A stretch of DNA of 39,156 nt, taken from positions 1 to 39,156 of the forward strand of contig WAPT01000019.1 of the NCBI GenBank assembly GCA_015520605.1, read 5' to 3'. The notes beneath the pieces are model-generated. The model made no database searches, was not told the origin of the DNA, and saw nothing but the letters and a program-made list of their open reading frames with translations. Source of the stretch: Nanobdellati archaeon. GTDB taxonomy: Archaea; EX4484-52; WAPT01. Positions 2,086 to 11,141 of the stretch are shown one piece after another. Positions within the stretch are counted from its first letter, which is position 1. Each line of letters opens with the position of its first letter. Made by a program: the position numbers and the translations under genes.

Positions 2086-4380
2086 CTACCCAAAGTAGCC
2101 CAACTCTTCCGGCTTTCTTAGCTCCTTTATCCTTTCTATTTTCCTCTTGAAGGACTCTATGTCGTTTTTGGTGAGGGAGGGCTTTATGACGTTCATCGCT
2201 TCTTCAAAATGTCTCATACGCACCTTTTTTGCATTTATCTTCTCTCTCAAAGTTATCAGCGCAGCCTCCCTGCATAGCGCTTCAATGTCGGCTCCTGTGT
2301 AATTTTCAGTTCTCTCCGCTATCTTCTCCAGATCAACATCGTCAGCCAGAGGCATATTCCTTGTGTGAACTTTAAGGATCTCAAGTCTGGCTTTCTGGTC
2401 TGGAGGGGGCACATAAATGTGCCTGTCGAACCTTCCTGGCCTCATTAAAGCTGGATCAAGCACCTCCGGCCTGTTTGTTGCACCTATAACTATAACACCA
2501 CCAAGTCCTTCCAGCCCGTCCATCTCCGCAAGGAGCTGTGTCACAACACGTCCCATGACCTCGTTTTCGGTTGTGAAGCTTCTTTTTGATGCGATAGCGT
2601 CAATCTCATCTATAAAGATTATAGACGGAGCCACCTGCCTTGCCTTTCTAAAGATCTCCCTTATCCTCTTCTCGCTCTCCCCTACCCATTTGGAAAAGAT
2701 CTCCGGTCCTTTTATATAAATGAAGTTGGCCTCGCTCTCATTGGCCACAGCCTTAGCTAACAATGTCTTTCCCGTTCCAGGAGGCCCATAAAGAAGCACA
2801 CCCTTTGGCGGTTTTATACCCATTCTCTTGAACGCTTCCGGGTGCTTGAGTGGCCACTCCACCATCTCTCTAAGCTGCTGCTTCTGCTTCTCAAGCCCAC
2901 CTATATCATTCCATCTTACTTTTGGCACCTCAATCATAACTTCACGCATCGCACTTGGTTCAACAACCATCAAGGCATTCTTGAAATCCTCCATGGTCAC
3001 CTGTAACTTCTCCAGCACTTCTGGTGGGAGCTCATCTTCGTCCAGATTAATCTCGGGGAGCACCCTCCTAAGAGCGGACATTGCAGCCTCCTTCACAAGC
3101 GCCGCCAGATCAGCCCCAACATAACCATGGGTTATATCGGCTATCTTCTCCAGATCAACATCGTCAGCCAGAGGCATATTCCTTGTGTGAATCTGCAGTA
3201 TTTCAAGCCTCCCGTTTCTGTCCGGCACACCGATCTCTATCTCCCTGTCAAACCTTCCCGGTCTTCTCAAAGCTGGGTCAAGCGCGTCAGGTCTGTTTGT
3301 TGCTCCTATGACTATTACCTGTCCTCTGCTCTTCAACCCATCCATACATGCAAGAAGCTGCGCGACTATTCTTCTTTCAACTTCCCCGGTAACATCCTCC
3401 CTTTTTGGGGCTATGGCGTCAATCTCATCTATGAAAATTATAGACGGAGCGTTTTCTTCAGCTTCTTTAAATATGTCTCTTATCTTCTTCTCACTTTCTC
3501 CATACCACTTACTTGTTATTTCCGGCCCGTTGATGGAAATAAAGTAAGCACCGCTCTCATTGGCCACAGCCTTAGCTAACAATGTCTTTCCCGTTCCAGG
3601 AGGCCCATAAAGAAGCACACCCTTTGGCGGCTCTATGCCCAGCCTCTCAAACAGTTCTGGATGTTTCAACGGGAGCTCTATCATTTCCCTTACCTTTCTC
3701 ACAGCTTCCTTAAGTCCACCTATATCTTCATAGGTTACCACAGGAACAGCGCCCTTCTCTTCTGCAACATCCACGCTTTGACTAAGAACCTCAACTCTCG
3801 TATTTTCTGTTATTATCACTATACCGGATGGCTCGGTCTTAACAACCCTAAAGAGCACCTCTCCAAAACCAAGAGCAAAGAGCTCATCAATTCCGAAGCC
3901 TGTGAAGAAATCGGATCTGTATGGATGGCCTCTCCTTCTTGGTGCGGGCAGAATTATATCGCCCTTAACCATAACTCTTCCCAACAACACCCGTTTCATA
4001 TGCTCTCCTGGGATGTGAACCACAACTCCCTTCTGCGCCGGAGCAAGTACAACCTTCTTGGCTTCTTTTATCTCAGCCTTTCTCACCACAACTGTCTCGC
4101 TGACGGAAACTCCAGCATTCCTCCTCGTATAACCGTCCATCCTTATTATGTCCAGTCCCGCATCGGAAGGATACGATCTGAGAGCTATGGCCGCTGTCTT
4201 TCTTTTCCCCTCTATCTCTACAGGCTGGCCTTCTTTCACTCCTATTTCGGCGAGTCTCCTGAGGTCTATTCTAACAATTCCGATGCCTATATCTGATTGC
4301 GCGCTGCTCGGTATCTCTCCAACCTTGAGTCTTATTTCCTTTTTCTTGCTTCCTCTATTTTCCCTTCCCTCTCCAACCAT
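2086..4380 (-). CDS. CDC48/VCP-type AAA ATPase (two AAA modules)
   Basis: Two [18 protein letters not shown] Walker A motifs, two [11 protein letters not shown] Walker B motifs, N-terminal CDC48 double-psi-barrel-like region. Confidence 0.97.
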
Positions 4381-4434
4381 AAGTACTCTATTTGTTATAC
4401 TGAATTTTTAAATATTGGAAGAAAAAGCTACCAC

Positions 4435-5136
4435 ATGGTGAATGTCCTCAAGCTGAGGTGGGAACAGTTAAATGTTTTTCTTGGGGGAGGAGTGGAAAAG
4501 GGCATAATAACCAACGTGTACGGTGTTGCTGGCGCTGGCAAAACCAACTTTGCGCTTGAAGTGACGATAGCAGCACTCCTTGAAGGAAAAAAGACAGTGT
4601 TCATTGACACGGAGAGAAACTTTTCTCCAGAAAGATTTTTGCAGATGCATCCCAGAAAGGAAGATCTGGAAAGAGTGCTGATCTTCGAGCCATTCTCCTT
4701 CTACGAGCAACATAAAGTTATTCTAGAAAAACTTCCCGAAATCCTAAAGAAGGAGGATGTTGGTGTTGTTATCATAGATTCCATGGTGGCTCTTTATAGA
4801 CTTGAGATGAGGCACGAGAAAGCACAAGAAGTCAATGCTATGCTCAGCGAGCAGTTTGTGCAGCTTGCTAAACTTGCAAAGTATCACAACATTCCCGTGG
4901 TGGTGACATGTCAGGTTTACACACCCTTCGACACAGAGGAGCTTGAGATAGTGGGGAGAGACATCCCGAAATACTCATCGAAGTGCATGATCCTGCTTGA
5001 AAAGAAGAACTTCAACGAAAGGAGAGCAACTCTTATGAAACATCGCTACATGCCCGAGGGAGTATCCATCGATCTCAAAATAACAAATAAAGGTCTTACG
5101 CCCGCCGGATCAAGGAAGTTTGCTATCTTTAAATAG
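4435..5136 (+). CDS. radB: DNA repair and recombination protein RadB
   Basis: MVNVLKLRWEQLNVFLGGGVEKGIITNVYGVAGAGKTNFALEV; RecA fold without HhH domain, ~230 aa. ORF-track start (4297) is upstream; ATG at 4435 preferred. Confidence 0.9.
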   Translation: MVNVLKLRWEQLNVFLGGGVEKGIITNVYGVAGAGKTNFALEVTIAALLEGKKTVFIDTERNFSPERFLQMHPRKEDLERVLIFEPFSFYEQHKVILEKLPEILKKEDVGVVIIDSMVALYRLEMRHEKAQEVNAMLSEQFVQLAKLAKYHNIPVVVTCQVYTPFDTEELEIVGRDIPKYSSKCMILLEKKNFNERRATLMKHRYMPEGVSIDLKITNKGLTPAGSRKFAIFK

Positions 5137-5748: not shown

Positions 5749-7803
5749 CTTCTTTTTACTTCTTTTTTTGCAGCTGGGGTCTAAGCAGATGAACCAATGA
5801 GAGCTCTTTTTGCCTTTAGTTCGCATAATGACTCTTATAATGGGAGTACCACAGGTTTCACACACCCTCCCCGTCGGTATTATTTGACCTTTGGTTGGAA
5901 GAGGATAAGAAATTTTACATTTAGGATATGTGTCACATGACACAAATCTCTTGCCAGATTTTCCCTTTCTTATTATAAGATTGCCTCCACATTTACACTT
6001 GCCGAGTACACGCTCCTTGGATTCCATATCTTTTATGGAATACACAAGTTCCTTCCCCAACTCTTCCTCCTTTTCCTTGAGTTTATTTAGCACAGATATA
6101 AGATGGTTCTTTGCCTCCACCACTATTTCATCACTTTTTGCGATTCCTTTGCTTATTTTCTCAAGCTTTTCCTCGAACTCACGAGTTAGTTCTTCGTCCA
6201 TAATTCTTTCAGCATACTCCTTCAATATTGTTACGACCTTCTCTCCGATGGGAGTTATCTCTATTTTATTACCCTTTATGTACTTTCTTTCATATAGGTG
6301 GTGCACTATTTCAGCTCTTGTTGCCTTCGTTCCGAGGTTTCTCTTTTCAAGCTCCCTCACGAGAGAGGCAGCGGTGTATCTGTCTGGTGGAGTAGTCATT
6401 TTCTTTTCAAGCTTTACCTTATCTACGGGGTAGGTGCCATTAAGGGTGAATGCCGGCAGCTCAATCTCTTTACTTCTCAAGTAGGGTTTGTATGCTCTGT
6501 ACCAGCCTTCATGAACCACCTGCACTCCCGTTGCGATGAATTTGGCGCCATTGGCATCAAAAACAACCTTTGTGAGCATTTTTTCAGCAGGTTCCATGAA
6601 ACAAGCAAGAAACCTTCTTACGATGAGATCATAAATTTTCGCTTCATTTTTACCTAGATTTTGAGGAACCTCTCCTGTGGGGTGGATGGCCGGATGTGCT
6701 TCATCATCCTTCTTCCCTTCCTTAGGAATCAGAAGACGCTTGCTTAACAACTCCGCCACAACACTTTGATATTGTGAGATCTTTGATATACCATGCAAAA
6801 TCTTGTGAAAGTCAATTGTTCTGGGAAGCTTCTGCGAGCTCGTTCTGGGGTAGGAGATTAGGGACATTTCATAAAGCTTCTGCGCTATGTCCTGTGTCTG
6901 TTTCGGGCTGAGCTTGAAGAGCGCGTAAGCTTCAGCCTGCAAGTCGTTGAGATTGAACGACGCGGGTGGGTTGTGTTTCTTTTTCTTCCTGTTTATCTCA
7001 GCAACCCTAGCGTGTTTCGTTGCTTTCACCTTTCTGTGGAGATCTCTTGCAACAACCTCTTTTTCTATCTTACCTCCTTCATATTCTGCTTTTACCCCCA
7101 TTACCTCTATGCTGAGCTTCCAATAGGGTGTTGGCATAAACTGCCTTATCTCAAGCTCCCTGTCGTAAACTATCTTCAATGCAGGCCCCTGAACCCTCCC
7201 GCTGCTCAGTATGAAGTGTCTTCCTGCCTTTTTTACTGCGCTCATCAGAGCTCTGCTTACATTAATCCCCCAAAAATAATCTAAAATGTGTCGCGTGACA
7301 CCCGCTTCTGCAAGCCCGAAGAGAATGGTCGGTTTGGCATTCTCATACGCTTTAACAAGGTCGTCCTTTGTCAGGGTGGAGAAAAGCATACGCTGTGCAT
7401 TTTTTCTGTTACATATAAAGCGCAGGATGTTGAATCCGATAGTCTCGCCCTCAATATCGTAGTCTGTGGCTACGATTATCTTCTTGGACTTGTTGCTGAG
7501 CATTTTTATGGCAGAAATGTATTCTTTAGTATATGTCGCACTCTTACCGACAACATACAGCGGTTTCCACTCGACATCGAATACAGGGTAGTGGTTATAC
7601 GCTACCTTCTCCCTTTCCGCCAGCCCAAAAAGATGCCCTGCAGCCCCCACAACTGCTATTTTTTTGCCCTTCCTCTCTATCTCAAAATAAGGAACCTTGC
7701 CGTGCCTTTTCGTTATAATCTTTGATTCCGCAAGTGCCTGCGCTATCTTTCTTGCACTGGAAGGCTTCTCAGCTATGATGAGCTCATCGTACATTTCCAT
7801 CAT
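5737..7803 (-). CDS. topA: DNA topoisomerase I (type IA)
   Basis: Toprim start MYDELIIAEKPSSARKIAQAL, EGETIGFNI, active-site SYPRTSSQKLP, C-terminal zinc ribbons (CKCGG..CDTYPKC, CETCG..CLDPSC). Confidence 0.95.
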   Translation of the reverse strand: MMEMYDELIIAEKPSSARKIAQALAESKIITKRHGKVPYFEIERKGKKIAVVGAAGHLFGLAEREKVAYNHYPVFDVEWKPLYVVGKSATYTKEYISAIKMLSNKSKKIIVATDYDIEGETIGFNILRFICNRKNAQRMLFSTLTKDDLVKAYENAKPTILFGLAEAGVTRHILDYFWGINVSRALMSAVKKAGRHFILSSGRVQGPALKIVYDRELEIRQFMPTPYWKLSIEVMGVKAEYEGGKIEKEVVARDLHRKVKATKHARVAEINRKKKKHNPPASFNLNDLQAEAYALFKLSPKQTQDIAQKLYEMSLISYPRTSSQKLPRTIDFHKILHGISKISQYQSVVAELLSKRLLIPKEGKKDDEAHPAIHPTGEVPQNLGKNEAKIYDLIVRRFLACFMEPAEKMLTKVVFDANGAKFIATGVQVVHEGWYRAYKPYLRSKEIELPAFTLNGTYPVDKVKLEKKMTTPPDRYTAASLVRELEKRNLGTKATRAEIVHHLYERKYIKGNKIEITPIGEKVVTILKEYAERIMDEELTREFEEKLEKISKGIAKSDEIVVEAKNHLISVLNKLKEKEEELGKELVYSIKDMESKERVLGKCKCGGNLIIRKGKSGKRFVSCDTYPKCKISYPLPTKGQIIPTGRVCETCGTPIIRVIMRTKGKKSSHWFICLDPSCKKRSKKKLTL

Positions 7804-9095
7804 CGCTTGGACTTTGGCTCAATTTTCTTTATTCCATTCATGTATGGCCACAACACTTTAGGAATGTCCACACTGCCATCTTCATTCTGATAATTTTCAA
7901 GGATAGCACACATGGTTCTCTCCGTTGCTATGCCAGTACAGTTAAGGATGTGTACATAGCCCTTCGGTTTGCTTCCCTCTTTTTCCCTCCACTTTATGTT
8001 AAGCTTCCTAGCCTGATAATCTGTGCAGTTGCTCCCACTCACCACCTCTCTATACTTTTGCTGAGCCGGAAACCAAACCTCTATATCGTACTTTTTGGCA
8101 GCATTATCGTTCATCTCTCCGGAACATATATTTACCACCCTGTACGGCAGTCCCAGCTCCTGGTAGAACTCCTCGGCATTCTGAATCATCCTTTCATGCC
8201 AGTCCCAGCTTTCCTCCGGCAGGCAGAATACTATTTGCTCAACCTTGTCGAACTGGTGCACCCTGAAGATGCCTTTGGTATCTTTTCCATGTGCTCCAGA
8301 TTCCCGCCTAAAATTAGTTGAGAACCCCACATACTTAAGTGGGAGCTCATCCTTCAGAAACGTCTCATTCATGTGGTATGAAAGGATCGATTGTTCTGCT
8401 GTGGCTATGAGGTAGGCATCCATGCCTTCAACCTTGTATAGAGTTTCCTCAAAATCAGCAAGTTCTGAGGCCCCTTTCATGGCCTCACCACTTATCATAT
8501 ACGGCGTCCAAAGTGGTATAAATCCCTTGGCCGTTAGCTTATCGAAGGCATACCTTATTAAAGCGAGGTTGAGCAGCACGAGCTCGTTTCTTAGGTAATA
8601 GAACCTTGATCCGATAACCTTGGCAGCTCTGGCAACATCAGCAACATCGAGGATCTCTATCAGATCAGCATGCCCTTTTGGCTCGAAATCGAATCTCTTG
8701 GGATTTTCCCATGTCCTAACCACAACATTATCTTCCTCGCTCTCACCCACAGGCACGCTCTCATGTAGTATGTTTCCTATTCTGTAGCGGAGCTCATCTC
8801 TCTTCTGGAGGAGCTCGGCAGCTTTCTTCTCAAGCTCATCAACCCTTCGCTTTAGATCCTTCATTTTTTGAGCAAGATCCTCGGGAGTTGAACTTCTTTC
8901 TTTTCTCCTCTTTGCAACTTCGGAAAGAATCCTGTTCCTCTTCTCTCTCAGCTTCTGAAGCTCCCGTATGCTTTCCCTCCATTTTGCATCGTACTCCAAC
9001 ACTTTGTCCACTATGGACGGGTCTTTGAATCTTTTTCGCTCGGATTCCTTAACTATTTCGGGGTGTTGCCTTATGAAGTCCATGTCGAGCATCAC
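7800..9095 (-). CDS. serS: Seryl-tRNA synthetase (common type)
   Basis: N-terminal coiled-coil arm, class II motifs (FRRESGAHGKDTKGIFRVHQFDKVEQ, HILNCTGIATERTMCAILENYQ); start overlaps the topA start codon region by 4 bp. Confidence 0.96.
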   Translation of the reverse strand: MMLDMDFIRQHPEIVKESERKRFKDPSIVDKVLEYDAKWRESIRELQKLREKRNRILSEVAKRRKERSSTPEDLAQKMKDLKRRVDELEKKAAELLQKRDELRYRIGNILHESVPVGESEEDNVVVRTWENPKRFDFEPKGHADLIEILDVADVARAAKVIGSRFYYLRNELVLLNLALIRYAFDKLTAKGFIPLWTPYMISGEAMKGASELADFEETLYKVEGMDAYLIATAEQSILSYHMNETFLKDELPLKYVGFSTNFRRESGAHGKDTKGIFRVHQFDKVEQIVFCLPEESWDWHERMIQNAEEFYQELGLPYRVVNICSGEMNDNAAKKYDIEVWFPAQQKYREVVSGSNCTDYQARKLNIKWREKEGSKPKGYVHILNCTGIATERTMCAILENYQNEDGSVDIPKVLWPYMNGIKKIEPKSKR

Positions 9096-9140: not shown

Positions 9141-9782
9141 ATGGGTTTATTGTCTTTCTTCTTTAGAAACAAAAAGGTCGAGAAACTGGAAACTGATGTG
9201 AAAAACATAAAAAATGAGCTTGAAAGTATAAGAACCGAGATTGAAAACACGAAAGAGCTGCTTTCATCTCTGAGTTCGGCGATAAAGCTACTTGACTCAA
9301 AATTAAAAAAGGAAGCGGAAAAGTTCAACATCAAGATGGAAGAGGTTGAAGAAAAAATATCTATCTTGATCAGATCAACTAAAATCGGGGTTGAAGCTAA
9401 AAAGGAAGTAGAAAGCATAAAGTTAAAGATAGAAGAGTTGGAAAAGTTGGTGGAGAACAAAAAAATTCGTGAAAAGAAAAAAGGATCAGAACGTAAAATT
9501 CCTGATGTGGGGATCGAAGACCGCGCTTTGTCACCGCAATCATCCGACTTCATGAAAACACTATCCCACGCGGAAAGAGAAATCATTTCTGTTTTGCTAT
9601 CTTCGGAAATTCCGCTTAGCTATGAGGAGATTGCGGAAAAGTGCGGTAAGTCACCCAGCACTGTCAGAGATCACATAAACAGTATAAGGAGAAAAGCCGA
9701 CATCATTGAGGTTGTCGAAGCTCCGGACAGAAAAAAGCTCTTCAAGATAATACCTCTCGTGAGGAAGGAGCTGATTTTCTAG
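9141..9782 (+). CDS. Coiled-coil protein with C-terminal helix-turn-helix domain
   Basis: Long heptad-rich N-terminal region; C-terminal LSHAEREIISVLLSSEIPLSYEEIAEKCGKSPSTVRDHINSIRRK HTH. Confidence 0.8.
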   Translation: MGLLSFFFRNKKVEKLETDVKNIKNELESIRTEIENTKELLSSLSSAIKLLDSKLKKEAEKFNIKMEEVEEKISILIRSTKIGVEAKKEVESIKLKIEELEKLVENKKIREKKKGSERKIPDVGIEDRALSPQSSDFMKTLSHAEREIISVLLSSEIPLSYEEIAEKCGKSPSTVRDHINSIRRKADIIEVVEAPDRKKLFKIIPLVRKELIF

Positions 9783-9790
9783 CTTGGTTG

Positions 9791-9865
9791 TTTTGTCGAA
9801 TTTTTCGACACAACTTCGACAGACATTCGACACAACTTCGACACAAACGTAATTTTTCGACACAA
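9791..9865. repeat. 75-bp direct repeat, copy 1, containing TTCGACA boxes at 11-bp spacing
   Basis: Matches 9921-9995 at 74/75 positions; TTCGACA at 9804, 9815, 9826, 9837, 9856 and inverted TGTCGAA at 9794. Confidence 0.95.
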
Positions 9866-9920
9866 CTTTTTTATAGAAATCAGCATGCATTAACCCACCA
9901 ACATTTTGACAACTAAATCT

Positions 9921-9995
9921 TTTTGTCGAATTTTTCGACACAACTCCGACAGACATTCGACACAACTTCGACACAAACGTAATTTTTCGACACAA
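9921..9995. repeat. 75-bp direct repeat, copy 2
   Basis: Same as 9791-9865 except one T to C change (9816 vs 9946); offset exactly 130 bp. Confidence 0.95.
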
Positions 9996-10052: not shown

Positions 10053-11141
10053 TCATCGGGTGATCTCCACACTTTTAATGAACTCGTAGAGTTCCTTCGC
10101 CTTCCTGTTCTTCTCGAAGTGCTCTCGTATTGGTTTGATTAAGCCCTCCAAATAGCTTGCTACCGCCATCTTCAAGTCAAGAGGGTGAAGCTTGCCTTCT
10201 TTGTAATCCTTTTCCACCTCTTCGTATGACCCGTAGATACTGTCTCCGCCGTATTTTGGAGGTCTTTCAACCTTAAAATCGCTGAATGCTCTGAAAATTA
10301 TGTGCTTCACGTACTCGAGTACTGGATTATCTTCCACGACTCTCGCAGGACAGTAAGCCTTTTTAAGTTTCCTCACAATTTCTTCATAGCTGTCGTGAAC
10401 GAAGATGGCAGAATCCGGCTTACTCTTGCTCATTTTTGAAGATATTTCCTTGTCTATTTTTTCGTTCTTGTCAAACCCCTCGGTCTTTTTCGGGCCCTGC
10501 AGACCCATAAGCATGTGGTGGCTCACTATTACGGGCTTCCTCCATTTCAGTTTATCCGCGATCTCTCTCGCTAGCATGTTAACCTTTCTTTGATCAAGCC
10601 CAAGCTGGCAGATATCCACATCCAGCTGAAATATGTCGGCACACTGCATTGACGGATAGAACAGGAACGCGGTCGGGTTGCTGAGCTTTCCCACTCTCCC
10701 TGCTATTGTCAGGGCTCTTAAACCCCTCTGAATTGTGTGGTTCTTTGCTATCAGTATGACCTTCTTCCAGTACTCGGGATCATCGAAGAACTCTTTGTGC
10801 CAGATAACTTCAACCTTATTCATGTCAACTCCTGCAGCTTTCCACACCTCGACAAAATACTCACCACACTTCCTTATTTTTTCAAGATCCCCACATAGTT
10901 TGTTGTTTATCCATGCGAACGTATCAGCAAGTAAAAGTTTGAAATGCACGCCAGCTTTCATGAGATCTCTGAGTAGGAGGGGCCTAAACACCCCTACAGG
11001 CAAGTGCGCGAGCCCGCTCGGCTCAAATCCGTCGTATGCCGTAATTTTTTCTTTCGTCTCGACAAGTTCCCTCAGCTCAGCTTTGGTTACTATCTCTTCC
11101 CCCACCCCGGCTATCAACTCAAACCTCGTTTCGGCATCCAT
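10053..11141 (-). CDS. tyrS: Tyrosyl-tRNA synthetase (archaeal/eukaryotic type)
   Basis: YDGFEPSGLAHLPVG HIGH region, SSKMSKSKPDSAIFVHDS KMSKS motif, MQCADIFQLDVDICQLGLDQRKVNMLARE. Confidence 0.95.
   Translation of the reverse strand: MDAETRFELIAGVGEEIVTKAELRELVETKEKITAYDGFEPSGLAHLPVGVFRPLLLRDLMKAGVHFKLLLADTFAWINNKLCGDLEKIRKCGEYFVEVWKAAGVDMNKVEVIWHKEFFDDPEYWKKVILIAKNHTIQRGLRALTIAGRVGKLSNPTAFLFYPSMQCADIFQLDVDICQLGLDQRKVNMLAREIADKLKWRKPVIVSHHMLMGLQGPKKTEGFDKNEKIDKEISSKMSKSKPDSAIFVHDSYEEIVRKLKKAYCPARVVEDNPVLEYVKHIIFRAFSDFKVERPPKYGGDSIYGSYEEVEKDYKEGKLHPLDLKMAVASYLEGLIKPIREHFEKNRKAKELYEFIKSVEITR

Follow-up and report, generated by a model that had tools for sequence, protein, structure and literature searches.

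A phased TTCGACA array beside a coiled-coil wHTH gene: a candidate centromere-like anchor on an archaeal chromosome

The DNA analysed here (the window, a stretch of 39,156 nucleotides) carries a dense array of TTCGACA boxes between two convergent genes, the upstream one of which encodes a coiled-coil protein with a winged helix–turn–helix (wHTH) domain. The features of the locus are as follows.

7800..9095, minus strand: serS, divergent neighbour (context, outside the device)
9141..9782, plus strand: coiled-coil/wHTH gene, 213 aa, presumed binder of the array (from the ORF, HTH matches, homologues and an AlphaFold model)
9791..9865, plus strand: array unit 1, 75 bp, with one inverted and five direct TTCGACA boxes
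9794..9810, no strand assigned: inverted pair TGTCGAATTTTTCGACA at the head of unit 1 (its counterpart in the congener G001 is TGTCGAAATTTTCGACA)
9804..9843, plus strand: four direct boxes at exact 11-bp spacing (9804, 9815, 9826, 9837)
9856..9862, plus strand: fifth direct box, 19 bp past the fourth
9866..9920, no strand assigned: inter-unit spacer, not conserved in G001
9921..9995, plus strand: array unit 2, 75 bp, with one mismatch (the box at 9945, TCCGACA)
10053..11141, minus strand: tyrS, convergent neighbour (context only)

Read directly from the sequence, exact TTCGACA boxes start at 9804, 9815, 9826, 9837, 9856, 9934, 9956, 9967 and 9986 in the forward orientation and at 9794 and 9924 in the inverted orientation; together with the mismatched twelfth box at 9945, this gives a total of 11 exact boxes and one imperfect box. 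Successive spacings within unit 1 are 10, 11, 11, 11 and 19 bp, and the spacers separating the four direct boxes alternate CAAC / GACA / CAAC (CATC / GACA / CATC in G001). The two units, at an offset of 130 bp, are 99% identical. A preliminary description of this stretch had reported the same count of boxes, a 75-bp unit recurring 130 bp downstream with one mismatch, and a position between the convergent HTH gene (ending at 9782) and tyrS (ending at 10053); each of these is borne out by the direct reading and the open reading frames. Its proposal that the boxes occupy one helical face holds for the phased 10-11-11-11 core, but not for the array as a whole, as the fifth box (at 19 bp) and the two units are not all co-facial.

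TTCGACA is matched 19 times in the window, compared with 5.1 ± 2.3 times in dinucleotide shuffles (0 of 100 shuffles reached 19), and 11 of these 19 matches are concentrated in 205 bp. Pattern scans over the whole of the window genome (27 contigs, 863 kb, 91% complete) found the 11-bp-phased pair TTCGACANNNNTTCGACA four times, in every case at the array, with no match to a reversed-pattern control; TTCGACACAA is present in eight copies at the array and one elsewhere. The genome scan for 11-bp-spaced TTCGACA that had been recommended at the outset thus confines the phased pair to this locus. Genome-wide dispersal of the 75-bp unit, which had been named as a finding that would count against a specific function, was not observed; there is a single array per genome.

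In both congeners compared (G002 and G001) the array immediately follows the 3′ end of the HTH gene and precedes tyrS; their HTH proteins are 82% and 48–50% identical to that of the window, respectively. The G001 array contains 14 exact boxes, mostly 11 bp apart, whilst the G002 assembly breaks within the array, leaving array halves at two contig ends. The array has therefore been kept whilst its neighbouring protein diverged to 48–50% identity, and its absence from close relatives, which the preliminary description had considered would speak against it, is not what is found. These observations bear on the possibility that the array is a neutral or selfish tandem repeat, or the remnant of a mobile element. 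The two near-identical 75-bp units do point to a recent duplication, and the G002 assembly is interrupted within the array; however, the presence of the same box at the same site in so diverged a congener, the different phased repeats found at the corresponding place in other families (below), and the absence of the array from elsewhere in the genome largely refute this reading, which we consider hardly credible. The conserved synteny similarly disfavours the landing site for mobile elements that had been suggested.

The product of 9141..9782 has a short hydrophobic/aromatic N-terminus (MGLLSFFFRNKK), a long coiled coil (approximately residues 3–116), and a C-terminal wHTH (approximately residues 143–200). 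A single-sequence AlphaFold model (pTM 0.33) has helices at residues 3–61, 66–79 and 81–116, followed by HTH helices at 143–153, 161–168 and 172–185. Pfam HTH families match the protein with E values of 7e-6 to 2e-4, mostly just below the curated cut-offs. Pfam and NCBIfam searches returned generic HTH or coiled-coil matches only, with no ParB-type (CTPase) domain; the 25 matches listed include no MerR family, and neither these searches nor the model revealed an AAA+ or other catalytic domain. A sequence search of the PDB yielded only designed coiled coils, viral fusion proteins and generic HTHs, and Foldseek, run with the single-sequence model, gave no match below E 0.09. No described family name covers the protein, and no paper on a coiled-coil wHTH family of this type was found in the open-access literature searched. 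The combination of a wHTH and a long coiled coil in one protein is retained across the homologues, as is the pattern of the N-terminal stretch, i.e. hydrophobic/aromatic residues followed by basic ones. The N-terminus does not stand out in its hydrophobic moment, and over the first ten residues 28% of control N-termini are as hydrophobic, so these properties lend weak support to membrane binding. In G002, a coiled-coil protein that has a similar N-terminus (MVLDFLFGKKK) but lacks an HTH is encoded on contig C14 (approximately 4342–4707; L066), about 3 kb from cdc6.

The metagenome-assembled genome LFW-46 has been placed in the GTDB phylum EX4484-52, a DPANN lineage that is sister to Nanohaloarchaeota (PMC8561730); the window genome, which belongs to the same order as G013, is likely a member of this phylum. 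A profile of the HTH protein found homologues in 17 of the 34 genomes of the order, many of which are incomplete, and in all 7 of those with at least 90% completeness and at most 5% contamination. The repeat beside the homologue differs from family to family, being ATCGATTA in f7, CATAACTA in f4, ATAGTATCG in f6 and GTTATAAC in f3. The gene order serS/HTH/array/tyrS/rtcA is retained with a changed box in the f6 genome G033, in which a truncated second copy of the HTH domain is also present between the full gene and the array (L046, 11781–12023). In the f3 genome G010 the boxes are also intragenic: seven copies of GTTACAACA, in frame and exactly 21 bp apart, encode a linker (NNVTTP...) in which the Asn codons between the invariant boxes vary.

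The pairing extends to a second, much larger archaeal phylum, the small genomes of which suggest that it too belongs to DPANN. The family profile was matched in 81 of 284 genomes of this phylum, and G338 encodes a relative that is full-length and shares the N-terminal motif, with a 3′ array of GTCGACTA beside its gene. Strong 3′ arrays are also present in G568 (CATTATAATG) and G493 (GTGACAC). The box-like clusters of f169 and its relatives are situated 5′ of the gene or within its linker codons. With G338, G568 and G493 set apart, the box counts at 13 of 30 loci equal or exceed a level reached by at most one in 60 shuffles. In f169 many clusters are modest and several are no better than shuffles, so the association of gene and array is common rather than universal; moreover, some homologues (in G255, G238, G521 and others) have no array in the flanks read. 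A scan for clusters of short repeats that took no account of gene positions placed the top cluster at the coiled-coil wHTH gene in 10 of 16 contigs or stretches, and did not favour the gene in G010 (in which AT-rich clusters rank higher), G608, G451 or G606.

In f169 and G451, a second coiled-coil wHTH gene (gene B) is convergent with the first (gene A), and its coding sequence contains an ORB-like box and tandem short repeats. Its coordinates in the respective records are as follows.

L143, 299465–300103: gene B
L144, 312777–313454: gene B
L148, 160859–161515: gene B
L145, about 240044–240661: gene B

The window's own box, TTCGACAC, occurs five times inside gene B of G601 (L148, 161314–161364) and five times at the corresponding place in G599 (L169, 2687–2738), both being genomes of a different phylum. 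The recognition helix of the G601 protein B shares an RD motif with that of the window protein. A code relating recognition helix to box was looked for and is not claimed, because protein B of G591 pairs the same RD motif with a different repeat, TGTTGGAA. In four genomes (L143, L144, L148 and L145) a small protein of 86–88 aa, the sequence of which suggests by eye a PRC-barrel type, is encoded between gene B and cdc6.

The varied placement of the boxes informs on whether the protein is simply a transcription factor, with the array serving as its operator or as a 3′ regulatory element in autoregulation or local gene control. Its C-terminal domain resembles the HTHs of ordinary transcription factors, and boxes do lie upstream of the gene in some f169 genomes. 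Nonetheless, the 500 bp preceding the HTH gene contain no boxes in the window genome (G000), G001, f7, f4, f6 or G338. The array is located between convergent genes here, and is 3′, 5′ or in the linker codons according to lineage, an arrangement predicted by no promoter mechanism and hence not that of a promoter operator. Autoregulation is therefore improbable, in agreement with the earlier judgement that an ordinary promoter-operator role is unlikely.

Origins of archaeal chromosomes are marked by ORB repeats adjoining cdc6 (PMC4010727). In eight second-phylum genomes, 2.3–8.2 kb separate the coiled-coil wHTH gene from cdc6; the corresponding distances are 20.5 kb (G001), 31 kb (G338) and 92 kb (G010), and ascertainment of such values favours long contigs. 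With one genome taken per family, and the gene and cdc6 on one contig, the linkage has a Fisher P of ~2e-5, or of ~8e-4 when three families with the two on separate contigs are entered as P = 1. All of the genomes are assemblies from uncultured organisms, and several are incomplete. ORB-like boxes, defined as matches with up to 3 mismatches to TTCCANNGGAAANGAANGGGG (our own working consensus), occur in at least 15 second-phylum genomes no more than ~1 kb from the gene, against a chance expectation of ~0.005 per 2 kb; they are sometimes located inside the convergent gene B, where they encode STGNEG.

Within the 39-kb window no ORB-like sequence was found at up to 3 mismatches. Two are present on contig C12, which also carries cdc6, such that cdc6 is not adjacent to the array in the assembly. 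C12 and the window abut within ~10 bp of G001 sequence, a synteny that places cdc6 at ~21 kb and the ORB-like pair at ~29 kb from the array. Analysis of GC skew, proposed earlier as a means of locating an origin, was informative in part: G010 shows a clear minimum near cdc6 and no change of sign at its array, whereas in G001 and the window the skew is dominated by gene orientation and is thus uninformative. The suggestion that the array itself consists of origin iterons was rejected for the window genome on the basis of the positions of its ORB-like boxes and cdc6.

A broader role in replication control is conceivable, with the protein acting as a wHTH initiator or regulator on an iteron-like array, in the manner of archaeal cdc6/ORB and Sulfolobus WhiP/oriC3. 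The location of a gene beside cognate, lineage-specific repeats is a signature of replicator–initiator pairs (PMC4010727), and the proximity of the second-phylum locus to ORB-like boxes, one of them embedded in the neighbouring gene B, is consistent with such a role. However, the protein lacks an AAA+ or other catalytic domain, the window genus has its ORB-like boxes and cdc6 at a distance of ~21–29 kb, and the G010 array is ~90 kb from cdc6, the ORB-like boxes and the skew minimum. We regard replication control as rather unlikely.

It is also possible to envisage a nucleoid-associated or architectural element of limited reach that plays no part in inheritance and instead bridges DNA locally or insulates the convergent genes from one another. 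Bridging would suit a coiled coil and phased boxes, and UBP, a nucleoid-associated protein of archaea, is active at origins (PMC12141716). There is, however, one array per genome as opposed to hundreds of UBP sites, which equally disfavours the nucleoid organiser of the preliminary description, and insulation alone would give no reason to expect the locus so repeatedly near cdc6 and ORB-like boxes. This reading is very improbable.

On balance, the sequence evidence leads us to favour a reading in which the array and the protein are a cognate pair that would anchor the chromosome in a centromere-like manner, with no linked NTPase. The occurrence of a single array, its gene-linked protein, a box that changes with it, the free position of the array and the linkage to the origin together make an anchor cassette a better fit than either an operator or a nucleoid-organising role. 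A partition or centromere site is likewise the best-fitting of the functions originally listed, because a dedicated putative binder is adjacent, protein and array are conserved together, and the locus is linked to the origin. Neither this linkage nor the change of box alongside the protein from lineage to lineage featured in the preliminary description.

In the mechanism we propose for the anchor, the coiled-coil wHTH protein would have as its cognate site the array that follows its own gene, with its dimers or oligomers sitting side by side on the helically phased boxes via their C-terminal wHTH domains. The coiled coil would join the bound proteins to form a rod or patch. The short hydrophobic N-termini, clustered as a consequence of phased binding along the array, may tether this patch to the membrane or some other cellular structure. 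Since the locus is near the replication origin, the complex could serve as a centromere-like anchor by which the origin region is positioned or partitioned, with no NTPase encoded alongside. ParA/MinD-type ATPases are encoded elsewhere in most of the genomes tested, and a motor of this type may act in trans.

Several known systems offer precedents for parts of this mechanism. The staphylococcal plasmid pSK1 has cis repeats near par; the ram sites of Bacillus RacA lie near the origin and serve in pole anchoring; and parC of plasmid R1 consists of two clusters of 11-bp direct repeats bound by the small protein ParR. The locus described here resembles R1 parC/ParR in its two clusters of 11-bp direct repeats and small predicted DNA-binding protein, but ParR is a ribbon-helix-helix protein coupled to the actin-like ParM, neither of which is present here. 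Like the present protein, pSK1 Par is a single wHTH and coiled-coil protein with no NTPase partner in its cassette (cited in PMC11500499). The wHTH of pSK1 Par is, however, N-terminal and of MerR type, with a disordered C-terminus, whereas here the wHTH is C-terminal with no recognised MerR domain; furthermore, pSK1 Par is a plasmid system, whilst the present locus is chromosomal, archaeal and origin-linked. RacA likewise combines a wHTH with a coiled coil and uses repetitive centromere-like sequences (PMC11500499), but its wHTH is N-terminal and MerR-type, and its sites do not form one phased array beside the gene.

The streptococcal protein RocS shares with the window protein a DNA-binding wHTH, an oligomerising coiled coil and a membrane-binding end (putative in the present case) (PMC11500499). 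RocS has the reverse order of parts, the sections cited describe no gene-linked array for it, and no sequence relation to it was found. Bacillus Noc has a short N-terminal membrane-binding stretch and recruits specific DNA to the membrane (PMC4331003); it differs in its ParB-family fold and in having ~70 NBS sites around the chromosome, as opposed to one phased array and no ParB domain here. In its set of parts (hydrophobic end, coiled coil, wHTH) the present protein resembles RocS and, leaving aside the coiled coil, Noc, and for both of these the clustering of N-termini is described as switching on weak membrane binding (PMC4331003; PMC11500499). The present protein does not belong with pSK1 Par, RacA, RocS or Noc, because the domain order, the MerR or ParB fold, or the dispersed sites differ; our best reading, by analogy, is that it would work like these proteins whilst being unrelated to them by sequence.

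The archaeal systems compared differ principally in the partner proteins. SegAB has centromere-like sites near the gene that are enriched near an origin (PMC12284271). SegB is, however, a ribbon-helix-helix protein with the ParA-type SegA alongside and dispersed, conserved 13-bp palindromes, none of which were found here; the present protein is helical with a C-terminal HTH and has no ParA-type neighbour. AspA of pNOB8 is a wHTH protein that binds a site next to its own gene and multimerises along DNA (PMC5120986), and a predicted wHTH with a gene-linked array is likewise present at the window locus, but AspA needs the ParB and ParA of the same operon. No parA or parB is adjacent here, the neighbours being serS and tyrS; in the window genome, PF13614 matches are confined to contigs C24, C15 and C9, with none on the window contig (C19), which also distinguishes the locus from a ParABS arrangement with a ParA ATPase beside the DNA-binding gene. 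Membership of SegAB or AspA-ParBA therefore does not hold, as neither ParA nor ParB is encoded adjacently.

The form of the archaeal chromosomal centromere, and which partition systems a given archaeon has, are listed as open questions (PMC5120986), and a 2024 review describes archaeal segregation only via ParA/SegA-type machinery (PMC7617429). Judged from sequence, the array and its origin-linked putative binder look like an unrecognised handle by which the chromosome could be held or sorted. More tentatively, they may represent an undescribed, fast-evolving centromere or anchor system widespread in DPANN, composed of one coiled-coil wHTH protein with no linked motor and of an origin-linked cognate array that wanders (3′, 5′ or in linker codons) and has a lineage-specific box. 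If the anchor reading holds, these reduced archaea would have a minimal motor-free anchor in which protein and site co-evolve fast, the locus would help to mark origins in DPANN genomes that are hard to assemble, and there would be a case of DNA-binding sites inside the coding sequence of their own binder. The anchor reading is directly testable because each gene has its predicted site alongside.

A further motif, GTGAGAGTT, was observed near the gene in other lineages. It has 35 exact copies in 66 kb near the gene versus 7 in 601 kb of other sequence, and its concentration at the coiled-coil wHTH gene, within 1.5 kb, is seen in 18 of 22 genomes. The carriers include G010, G013, G008, G005, G024, G338, G608, G591, G601, G606, G535, G459 and G475, amongst others (records L041–L045, L091–L101, L110, L143–L150 and L163–L174). 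The window genome does not carry GTGAGAGTT, which, unlike the boxes, is invariant between lineages.
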